This document shows, one piece after another, positions 2,659 through 5,313 of a DNA stretch of 5,313 nt; position 1 is the stretch's first letter, and each line of letters begins with the position of its first letter. Origin of the DNA: an uncultured Fretibacterium sp. (lineage in GTDB: Bacteria > Synergistota > Synergistia > Synergistales > Aminobacteriaceae); NCBI GenBank assembly GCA_937892105.1, contig CALAUZ010000319.1, positions 1 to 5,313 on the forward strand, given 5' to 3'. The notes beneath the pieces were generated by a model. The model saw only the letters and a program-made list of their open reading frames with translations, was not told where the DNA came from and searched no databases. A program made the position numbers and the translations under genes.

Positions 2659-2838
2659 ATGGCTTTTGAAAATTTGAGGAAGTGTCTGTCCACGCCGGTA
2701 AAGTTCGATGATGCTGATACTGGGATAAGTCTTGCAGGAGGGCGAGCGGAAGGGGAGAAGTGTCCGCGTTGCTGGAAGTATGAGGAACACCCGAACAGTA
2801 ACGGATTGTGCAGAAGATGTGCGGCACGTTATGAATGA
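2659..2838 (+). CDS. Free-standing IleRS-type C-terminal zinc ribbon, 59 residues
   Basis: ATG at 2659 opens a 59-codon frame ending at TGA 2836-2838. Residues 31-54 read EGEKCPRCWKY, then a short linker, then GLCRRC, giving C35-x2-C38-x12-C51-x2-C54. The KC-x-RCW signature followed by LC-x-RC is the hallmark of the FPG/IleRS zinc finger found at the extreme C-terminus of bacterial isoleucyl-tRNA synthetase, where it helps tRNA recognition. Here nothing of the synthetase body precedes it: the frame has a TAG at 2638-2640 and the AsmA-like gene fills the upstream sequence. Residues 1-30 have no motif I recognise, apart from an extra C9. It lies 10 bp after the AsmA-like stop and just before a terminator, so it is probably co-transcribed. 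No strong Shine-Dalgarno is visible (AGGG about 16 bases upstream), so translation may depend on coupling. It could be a functional trans-acting metal-binding domain or a relic of an ileS duplication. An intact, gap-free frame with all four cysteines argues for function, but does not prove it. Confidence 0.72.
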   Translation: MAFENLRKCLSTPVKFDDADTGISLAGGRAEGEKCPRCWKYEEHPNSNGLCRRCAARYE

Positions 2839-2859
2839 GGACTAGAAGATGAATTTTGG

Positions 2860-2891
2860 CCTCCCTGTGATGAGCGGGGAGGTATTTTTTT
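2860..2891 (+). terminator. Intrinsic terminator after the AsmA-like/zinc-ribbon unit
   Basis: CCTCCC (2860-2865) pairs perfectly with GGGAGG (2877-2882) around an 11-base loop. A TA and a run of seven T follow. It lies 21 bases after the zinc-ribbon stop codon and ends the leftmost transcription unit. Confidence 0.85.
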
Positions 2892-2893
2892 GC

Positions 2894-2915
2894 GTGAGAT
2901 TTCGTGAAATTTCAC
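2894..2915. promoter_or_regulatory. Near-perfect palindrome, possible operator
   Basis: GTGAGATTTC and GAAATTTCAC form a 10-bp inverted repeat with a 2-base spacer and one G-T mismatch. It follows the terminator and lies just upstream of the extended -10 match at 2934-2942, where a -35 element would sit (TTCACA at 2911-2916 is 5/6 to the -35 consensus but 20 bases away). No U-tract follows, so an operator is more likely than a terminator. The binding protein is unknown. Confidence 0.35.
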
Positions 2916-2933
2916 ATAAAAAAGAGCAAGGTT

Positions 2934-2942
2934 TGTTATAAT
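2934..2942 (+). promoter_or_regulatory. Extended -10 promoter for the LRR gene
   Basis: TGTTATAAT is a perfect extended -10 element (TGnTATAAT), which can work with a poor -35. The best -35 candidate, TTCACA at 2911-2916, has an over-long 20-base spacer. Transcription would start near 2949 and give an untranslated leader of about 140 bases before the LRR start codon at 3092. Confidence 0.5.
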
Positions 2943-3013
2943 TATTCGTATCAAAGTTACACTTAACACATTGCAAAGGGTACAACAACCCTAGTCTACC
3001 TTGCTTATTGTTT

Positions 3014-3022
3014 ATTATACCA
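3014..3022 (-). promoter_or_regulatory. Possible antisense extended -10 promoter in the LRR leader
   Basis: On the minus strand this reads TGGTATAAT, again a perfect extended -10, with a partial -35 (ATGACC, 19 bases upstream on that strand). It would fire leftward from about 3007, towards the + strand promoter at 2934. No convincing gene lies on the minus strand here, so a product would be a short antisense RNA. AT-rich spacers yield such matches by chance, hence the low confidence. Confidence 0.2.
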
Positions 3023-3055
3023 TAGTTAGGGTGGCGGAGGTCATGTGTCTTTCTT

Positions 3056-3072
3056 AATTTTGACGCAAAATT
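3056..3072. promoter_or_regulatory. Palindrome just before the LRR ribosome-binding site
   Basis: AATTTTG (3056-3062) and CAAAATT (3066-3072) are perfect inverted repeats around ACG. The element ends six bases before the Shine-Dalgarno of the LRR gene. It could be an operator or a small leader hairpin; the sequence does not say which. Confidence 0.25.
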
Positions 3073-3078
3073 CATTAC

Positions 3079-3084
3079 AGGAGG
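3079..3084 (+). promoter_or_regulatory. Strong ribosome-binding site of the LRR gene
   Basis: AGGAGG lies 7 bases before the ATG at 3092, which is ideal spacing and fixes the start of the signal-peptide reading frame. A second ATG at 3087 is only 2 bases from the site and would end after two codons at the TGA overlapping the real start. Confidence 0.85.
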
Positions 3085-3091
3085 TTATGAC

Positions 3092-4884
3092 ATGAAAAAG
3101 TTTTCGCGTTTCATGGTTTCGGCAATCTTCGTGTTGTTGATTGTTTCGTTGGCTTGGGCGGATGTGGTAATTGATGAAGCTAACTTTCCAGATGAAGAGT
3201 TTCGCAGGTACGTAAGCGTAAAGCTAGATACTGACATGTGACAGCAACAAACTTGTGGAGCTTGATTTGAGCAACCAAGTGCGCTTAGATTACTTAGAGT
3301 GTAATAATAATCAGTTGTCTATTCTTGACTTGAGCAATAGTCCTAATATGCAATACTTGGACTGTTCCACAAATCAGCTCACGAGACTTACTTTGAACGA
3401 AAACCGCAGTCGTTTAGGACTTCTGAATTGCAGAAGTAACTTGCTCACGGAACTTGACTCAAGTAACATGGGTAGTGATGCGTTGGGTTGGTCGTCCATC
3501 TCTGAATTGTAGCCATAATGAGCTGGTTTCTCTTGATGTAAGTAACTCGGAACTATGGTCGTTGAACTGTTCTCATAACCACCTTGAGGAACTTGACATA
3601 ACTCCGCATAAAATAACCTTGCTACAATGTCAATACAATCAATTAACCAGCCTTGATTTGAGCAATCAAAAATTCACCGCCATAGATTGCAGCCATAACC
3701 AGCTCTCAACGCTCATCATCAATGGTATGAGTGCAATGGATATGTACTGCGGAGATAATCAACTCACATCACTTGACCTAAACAGTGCTAAAGCAATAGG
3801 TGGACTGTCTGGTGTCTTATCCTGTGAAAATAACCTGCTGACCACGCTTGACGTGAGTAATAATACATCGCTGAAGGAGTTAGACTGCAAAAGTAACAGC
3901 CTTACGGTTCTCGATACTTCTGGTTGTCCAAACCTTGAAATTTTTGAGTACGATGGCAATACGAAAGTCATTACCCTCCAGCCAGAGTTCAAAGCCCATC
4001 AGCCAGTCCTCGAAGGTCAGATAATCGTCAACTTCTTCGCTCTATTGCCGCAAATTTCTGGTGTCGATTACAGCAAAAGCTATGTGAAGTTCGATGTACT
4101 TAACGATACTACGTACAATCCTGTGCAGGAATATGACCCTTCATTTACCACGAACGGGAAATCGGGAACATATTACGGCTTCAGGTGCTGCCTAACGTCA
4201 ATCCAGATGGCAGATCCTATAACAGCAACGCTTCACTATGGTAACGGCAAGACGATTACACATACGTACAAGCTCACGGACTATCTGGATAAGTACTACA
4301 ACGACACGTCAAAATCTGAAGCACTCAGAAACATTGTAGGAGCGATGAAGGATTACGGCCATTACGCGCAGATAGCCCTCGCTGAAGTCAACGGCTGGAC
4401 ACTCGGAACAACTCACTTTGCCACTGAAGCAGCAAAAGGTTACACGGACTCAGACATTGAGTAAACACGTCAAGCTGTGGACAGGTACGCAAAATCGTGG
4501 AACGTGGGGGCATCAGGCATACAGAGCATAGGTTACAGGCTGGTGCTTGATTCTGATACTGCGCTGGAATTGTTCATTCGTCCTGCTCAGGGATATTCGG
4601 GGAAAGTGTGCGCGTATTCAAAGGGAGCGATAGACATAACTAACACTAGTACAAATCTCGCGGTGAAACAGTCAGACGGCCGTTATCTCGTTCAAATTTC
4701 GGGCATACCTGCTCACAGGCTGGACTACACCAACACGATAAAGGTTGTTACGGACAAAGGAGAGTTTGACGTTAATGTTAGCGCGTTGTCATATGAGGAG
4801 CCTGAAATCGAGATTATACGTTTTGATGGTGAAGACGTAATCACGGCCAGCGGCGGCGGTACAGCCCTTCCGATAGAGGAGTAG
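3092..4884 (+). pseudogene. Secreted leucine-rich-repeat protein gene, broken by two frame shifts and a nonsense codon
   Basis: The start is intact: MKKFSRFMVSAIFVLLIVSL then AWA is a typical signal peptide, with cleavage expected before D24. VVIDEANFPDEEFRRYV follows, the usual opening of secreted LRR proteins of gut anaerobes. The frame stops at TGA 3239-3241. The LRRs resume one frame over (LTCDSNKLVELDLS, from about 3231) and run to TAG 3510-3512. They continue in a third frame from about 3500 (LNCSHNELVSLDVS) to TAA 4462-4464. After that stop the same frame runs on to TAG 4882-4884. The joined product has about 12 LRRs of C-x-x-N-x-L-x-x-LD-(L/V)-S type. A non-LRR region follows with YYGFRCCLTSIQMADPITAT and a helical part (LRNIVGAMKDYGHYAQIALAEVNGW). 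The last part is beta-rich (YRLVLDSD to NVSALSYEEPE). No C-terminal anchor is visible. The family is probably a surface or exported binding protein; function is unknown. Downstream pieces lack good starts and ribosome sites, so decay is the simplest reading. Assembly errors remain possible. Confidence 0.8.
3231..3977 (+). repeat. LRR block with Cys-x-x-Asn consensus
   Basis: About twelve repeats of 19-27 residues follow L-x-x-L-x-C-x-x-N-x-L-x-x-LD-(L/V)-S-x. Examples are LDYLECNNNQLSILDLSNS, LWSLNCSHNHLEELDIT and LKELDCKSNSLTVLDTS. The cysteine-to-asparagine ladder recurs in nearly every unit. Two units are longer, around 3471-3510 and 3783-3828. The second frame break of the gene falls in the first of these long units. 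Confidence 0.85.
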
Positions 4885-5217: not shown

Positions 5218-5247
5218 GTATACCTTCAGGAAGTCAGGAGGATATAC
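5218..5247 (+). promoter_or_regulatory. Ribosome-binding site partly held in a hairpin
   Basis: AGGAGG (5236-5241) lies 11 bases before the ATG at 5253 and sets that start. GTATACCT (5218-5225) can pair with AGGATATAC (5239-5247) with one bulged A, covering the last three bases of the Shine-Dalgarno. This could dampen or control translation. The stem is AT-rich and only moderately stable. Confidence 0.4.
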
Positions 5248-5252
5248 TCAAA

Positions 5253-5313
5253 ATGTTACACGTAAACGCAATGGGCAAGTTATGCCCCGAACCCGTCATC
5301 ATGACAAAAGCCG
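5253..5313 (+). CDS. TusA/YedF-like sulfur-carrier family protein, N-terminal 20 residues (3' end outside window)
   Basis: The ATG at 5253 follows AGGAGG at 5236-5241 and opens MLHVNAMGKLCPEPVIMTKA, which runs off the right edge. The pattern V-(D/N)-A-x-G-x-x-CP-x-PV-x-x-TK is diagnostic of the TusA/SirA fold. Cys11 in the CPEP motif corresponds to the persulfide-carrying cysteine of TusA, which relays sulfur for tRNA 2-thiolation and other pathways. The 'VNAMG' opening resembles, from memory, the N-terminal domain of the two-domain YedF proteins linked to selenium metabolism. With only 20 residues, single-domain TusA (about 80 residues) and YedF (about 200) cannot be told apart. The gene has its own promoter region after a terminator, so it begins a new unit. 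Confidence 0.82.
   Translation, partial: MLHVNAMGKLCPEPVIMTKA

Follow-up and report, generated by a model that had tools for sequence, protein, structure and literature searches.

The 59-residue open reading frame (ORF) at nt 2659–2838 of contig CALAUZ010000319.1, from an uncultured Fretibacterium sp., is probably a non-functional remnant of ileS, the gene of isoleucyl-tRNA synthetase (IleRS), at a rearrangement junction. The window analyzed here is the whole stretch of 5,313 nucleotides in which the ORF lies. In this window the tail of an enzyme gene stands without its body next to an unrelated neighbor, and therefore the ORF is in all likelihood left over from that gene rather than a gene of its own. 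Homology to ileS, the native order of the downstream genes, a junction unseen in the relatives read, an extra base in the tail and a broken leucine-rich repeat (LRR) gene all support this reading. The features of the window are as follows.

3–2648, + strand: 3′ portion of a gene of the asmA family (881 codons, frame intact), which runs off the left end of the window (Pfam AsmA, E 4.5e-10)
2649–2694, + strand: spacer and junction, containing the ATG of the ORF (2659); asmA homology stops at 2635–2680 and ileS begins at 2669–2694
2669–2845, + strand: ileS 3′ end (zinc finger), truncated at its 5′ side (nhmmer profiles; full-length IleRS frames L001–L009)
2821–2824, + strand: extra base (GCGG) relative to ileS tails (comparison with 30 tails and profile alignment)
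2859–2883, + strand: ileS terminator hairpin followed by a T-run; similar hairpins follow ileS in many relatives
2915–3091, + strand: leader after ileS and before the LRR gene; similar stretches occur in relatives
3092–4884, + strand: LRR surface-protein gene, broken by an in-frame TAA (4462–4464) and by two frame changes, one near 3235 and one near 3490
5253–5313, + strand: start of yedF (selenium-metabolism sulfurtransferase-like), cut by the window end (identity to L003 of genome G003)

The ORF is closed on the + strand and contains C35, C38, C51 and C54; the frame and the four cysteine ligands are found exactly where the first-pass annotation had put them. The Pfam family zf-FPG_IleRS (PF06827) matches residues 32–56 with 22.8 bits against a curated cut-off of 21.3 bits (E 8.2e-5). 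The best PDB matches of the ORF are IleRS C-termini, with weak E-values of 0.07–0.09. A DNA profile of the ileS 3′ ends of 30 relatives matches window nt 2685–2879 in nhmmer with an E-value of 3.3e-37, and the next-best position in the window has an E-value of 0.0083, showing that the likeness between the ORF and IleRS is real and is no chance match. The first-pass annotation was thus right to recognize the C-terminal zinc finger of IleRS. The 30 tails are the best 30 of 41 rows from the tail search of the genus. The anchor used to locate them was an exact match to CPRCWK, which all 30 contain, and those six residues are therefore unable to vary in the set.

The window shares with the C-terminal finger of bacterial-type IleRS (the end of TIGR00392; PF06827) its sequence, the four Cys and the EGEKCPRCWKYEEHPN...GLCRRC core. 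Unlike that finger, the window ORF has no synthetase body, its last residues are out of frame and it lies behind asmA. It also lacks the S[KR]FE[WF] segment preceding the finger, which is present in 12 of 12 other aligned sequences. The first-pass annotation missed that the similarity to IleRS starts only at about residue 10–13 of the ORF. It also did not see that the similarity continues downstream of the ORF, through the ileS terminator and into the flanking DNA, or that a single extra base makes the last five residues unlike the ends of all 30 tails. The first ~10 residues, which are outside the finger, would be spacer or breakpoint DNA, or damaged ileS.

In relatives the same sequence is the end of ileS. 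A contig scan with the ORF and its single database neighbor gave 17 loci, and the reading frames were examined in 14 (L001–L014). The matching sequence is the C-terminus of an open IleRS frame of 922–980 residues in the Synergistaceae loci L001–L009, and the end of a 897–997-residue frame reading as IleRS in the other five, L010–L014. The L002 protein matches TIGR00392 (ileS) with 907 bits. Against the IleRS tails of Synergistaceae, the identity of the window tail reaches 78% over 46 residues. As no closer tail occurs among the 17 proteins obtained at E <= 1e-10 when an intact IleRS of this species was sought, the window's own IleRS is not one of them.

Within the genus of G002, the tail occurs in 40 of 43 genomes (E <= 0.01) and an IleRS match in 41. 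The tail is in frame with the IleRS body in 37 of these 41, a few of them with the start of the body cut. The remaining four are G018, G022 and G037, which are cut by contig ends, and G034, which has a local deletion. At the family level 72 of 81 genomes carry the tail (E <= 0.001), and it is clearly separate from ileS in none of the 72; G018, G037 and G047 are contig-end cases, indecisive alone, and outside the genus the attachment was judged from frame length only. Tail rows with a frame of less than 400 residues in the family are G034, the contig-edge cases G018, G037 and G047, and a second copy in G030. As far as the genomes examined show (81 of the family, with 31 asmA loci), related genomes hold no orthologue of the finger as a separate, free-standing gene. 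The first-pass annotation regarded the ORF as a complete small gene and offered three roles for it. The relic agrees with the reading preferred here; action in trans on an IleRS and binding of another RNA are unsupported, the sequence being carried by relatives as the end of ileS.

To the right of the ORF, the window has the native downstream neighborhood of ileS. In blastn, window nt 2694–3106 matches L002 across the end of ileS and its 3′ flank at 73% identity over 428 nt, nt 2703–3103 aligns with L003, and similar stretches align with L004 too. The homology thus continues into the native 3′ flank, as in an ileS remnant. The order in G003, ileS followed by LRR (a 904-residue frame) and yedF, is the order of the right half, and segments of the window farther right match both of these G003 genes. 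In yedF, window nt 5244–5313 and L003 share 84% identity over 70 bases, and the yedF protein of G003 matches TIGR03527 with 169.9 bits (cut-off 110). LRR frames at this place are open in G003 and in G004 (1902 residues) and interrupted in the window; G002, otherwise the closest genome, has different genes here. By these alignments, the window from about nt 2669–2694 rightwards has the layout of the normal ileS locus in Synergistaceae relatives, from the last ~50 ileS codons through terminator and leader to LRR and yedF.

Four relatives were searched for stretches like the leader (nt 2915–3091), and three of them have such stretches at several positions. Such copies lie at G019:C110:4755-4892, G019:C102:13539-13698 and G002:C34:17446-17606. 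None was found in G003 at E <= 0.001, and the leader matched no Rfam family up to E 1.

The left half belongs to a different locus. An asmA orthologue is present in 42 of the 43 genus genomes, with up to 72% identity over 881 residues. The 3′ flank was read at 31 loci from these 42 genomes, none reaching more than ~1.5 kb beyond asmA. The ileS tail is behind asmA in none of the 31, 29 of which have at least 300 nt of flank. The conserved order of asmA and zinc ribbon, which the first-pass annotation had raised, is thus absent from these loci. The only tail-like match in an asmA locus, L049, was rejected as chance (E 1.7). With asmA on the left, the ileS locus on the right and the pairing absent in the relatives read, the junction must lie between nt 2649 and 2694. 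The genes downstream of asmA (L018–L061; kinds judged by eye) vary widely within the one genus, as if this were a frequent breakpoint.

A second profile, made from nine tails chosen as close with the G001 tail left out, matches window nt 2669–2882 with an E-value of 2.4e-47 in nhmmer; the match begins at 2669 and contains a 5-base gap. The similarity of the spacer itself is weak, with z up to 3.6 to asmA flanks and 1.1–2.4 to ileS, and hence the exact breakpoint is not fixed.

The main rival of the remnant reading is an assembly chimera, in which asmA and the ileS 3′ region come from different stretches or species and the real ileS continues normally. We regard it as possible, though distinctly the less probable account. 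The protein database searches and the genus genomes yielded no other case of the junction. In G003, asmA is on another contig than ileS, which lies in the middle of its contig (367–370 kb of 829 kb), so that a short deletion would not join the two there. Both halves fit the same genus, yet their best DNA matches partly differ. These points favor the chimera. An assembly join through a shared word would need a stretch of at least ~20 bases identical on the two sides; against this, the likeness of the 46-nt spacer to ileS is confined to the surroundings of a ~10-nt word. GC3 is alike across the junction (0.50 in asmA, 0.49 in the tail, 0.49 in LRR), and an intact asmA beside a broken LRR gene is unlike uniform sequencing error.

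The tail itself carries damage. The profile and the comparison with the 30 tails place one extra base after the last Cys, giving the ending AARYE-stop. The closest relatives end in C-A-H-V-M-N-E-D-stop or similar, and the window ends in C-A-A-R-Y-E-stop. No window-type ending was seen among the 30 tails, of which that of G040 is cut by the contig end before its stop. The native ileS stop, TAG at nt 2843–2845, is out of frame with the ORF. Relative to intact orthologues, the disabling changes are the body missing in the window and the extra base. The extra base alters the last residues only, and a working IleRS could tolerate this change at its end if nothing else were altered, which again suits a chimera.

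The substitution pattern speaks somewhat against the remnant, in that it does not reveal relaxed selection. The window keeps 18 of the 19 residues that are invariant in the tails of the 30 relatives, including all four Cys. The exception is L12, invariant in 30 of 30, which is T in the window and adjoins the junction. The pN/pS of the window tail is 0.19 against G001 and 0.24 against G002, the closest two, and 0.19–0.55 over the 30 tails; eight pairs of relatives give 0.04–0.33. These ratios rest on 46 codons with few sites, and the detached form has no true orthologues for dN/dS. The low pN/pS would mostly be due to the time the tail spent as part of ileS, before the break. Measured against asmA, the tail has diverged slightly more than expected; its mean z of −1.56 is the lowest among 24, with G025 close at −1.53, and over these 46 codons an excess is suggestive only.

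The retained residues and the four ligands are also what a working free-standing zinc finger would show, one that serves in trans an IleRS without its own finger. Peptides of the IleRS-finger kind have been studied in vitro apart from the enzyme, which makes the trans idea chemically sensible. The asmA stop is just 10 nt upstream of the ATG of the ORF, and therefore re-initiation after asmA is conceivable. Nothing like a Shine-Dalgarno (SD) sequence precedes the ATG at 2659 when the bases are inspected by eye; GAGGAAG at nt 2676–2682 resembles a ribosome site, but the ORF frame has no start codon shortly after it. The frameshifted end of the ORF, the missing segment before the finger, the broken neighboring LRR gene and the lack of any clear case of a tail apart from ileS among the 72 family genomes that have one (three being at contig ends) stand against such a function. 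Overall it is very unlikely that the finger works in this way.

PMC4861432, crediting Glasfeld et al. 1996, describes the C-terminal zinc motif of bacterial-type IleRS as essential for aminoacylation. The titles and abstract openings among the literature matches listed contain nothing on a free-standing IleRS finger. A variant of the trans idea would have the rearrangement split the only ileS of the organism ~50 codons from its end, with the finger working in trans from behind asmA. Such a split gene is very improbable.

The database contains small proteins with the tail; of 31 candidates at E <= 1e-5, 14 are of this kind, with lengths of 49–105 residues. By eye, eleven of the 14 look like IleRS throughout, and many start at an internal IleRS residue (MLETMRA..., MSKFEW...). 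Such proteins are what ileS genes with a frameshift or a cut would be expected to give. The N-termini of the other three, P0028, P0030 and P0031, are by eye seemingly unrelated to IleRS. P0030 and P0031 each come from one short contig and carry an IleRS tail. P0028, of 93 residues on a 1029-base contig, has an N-terminus matching PF09682 at its cut-off and then an IleRS tail; like the window, it appears to be a junction or chimera.

The N-terminus of P0028 is phage-holin-like, and this fusion suggests that ileS ends may sometimes border phage DNA. It speaks for one further explanation, in which the window tail is a displaced attachment-site copy from an element integrated at the ileS 3′ end. 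The left neighbor asmA is a core gene and no element gene, and neither phage records nor pattern scans of viral contigs yielded a stand-alone ileS tail. We consider this origin extremely improbable. P0028 had no match in phage records, viral scans with asmA, a degenerate finger DNA pattern and P0028 gave nothing, and no match was found in plasmids.

Several viral candidates were rejected. The ORF matches three phage records, each annotated as isoleucine--tRNA ligase. A further scan of viral contigs gave five loci, L111–L115. L111–L114 contain one identical frame of ~160 residues with a KCPRCWK motif, by eye no IleRS, and L115 contains a full-length IleRS-like frame. The ~160-residue viral frame, with its KCPRCWK...LCDRC zinc motif, lies at nt 5623–6111 in L111–L113 and at nt 752–1240 in L114.

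Two cases in the genus resemble the window in part. G030 has a tandem tail copy (L095, nt 3571–3912), likewise an extra ileS tail with damaged coding. It starts ~100 bp behind an intact ileS and is 95% identical over 257 nt, and its second Cys pair is lost, probably by deletion between short repeats. This copy shows that duplication and decay of ileS tails take place in the genus. The window tail, unlike the G030 copy, is behind asmA and keeps all four Cys. The other case is the frameshifted ileS of G034 (L092, L101), in which, as in the window, the tail is separated from the frame of the body just before the finger. The break in G034 is a small local deletion immediately before the finger, either real or an assembly error, and in contrast to the window the body and tail are still adjacent.

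For the favored reading, an ileS remnant, a simple course of events can be proposed. A chromosomal rearrangement would have fused the DNA immediately downstream of asmA with ileS, at a position ~50 codons short of the ileS stop. The ileS tail, terminator, LRR and yedF would thereby have come to lie behind asmA in their native order. The first codons of the ORF would then derive from spacer or breakpoint DNA, and the remaining frame would be leftover ileS. The +1 frameshift after the last Cys would have been acquired since the rearrangement, in a tail that is decaying. We infer that the join is present in the real chromosome, that an intact ileS lies elsewhere in the source genome and that the ORF is not used.

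On present evidence the feature is ordinary, a gene remnant or a chimera, and a free-standing gene is not favored. It gives a caution: a conserved motif in a short ORF need not mean a new gene, and the motif here is inherited from a large one. If the junction is real and the ileS of this organism is otherwise finger-less, the window would provide a natural test of an IleRS finger acting in trans.
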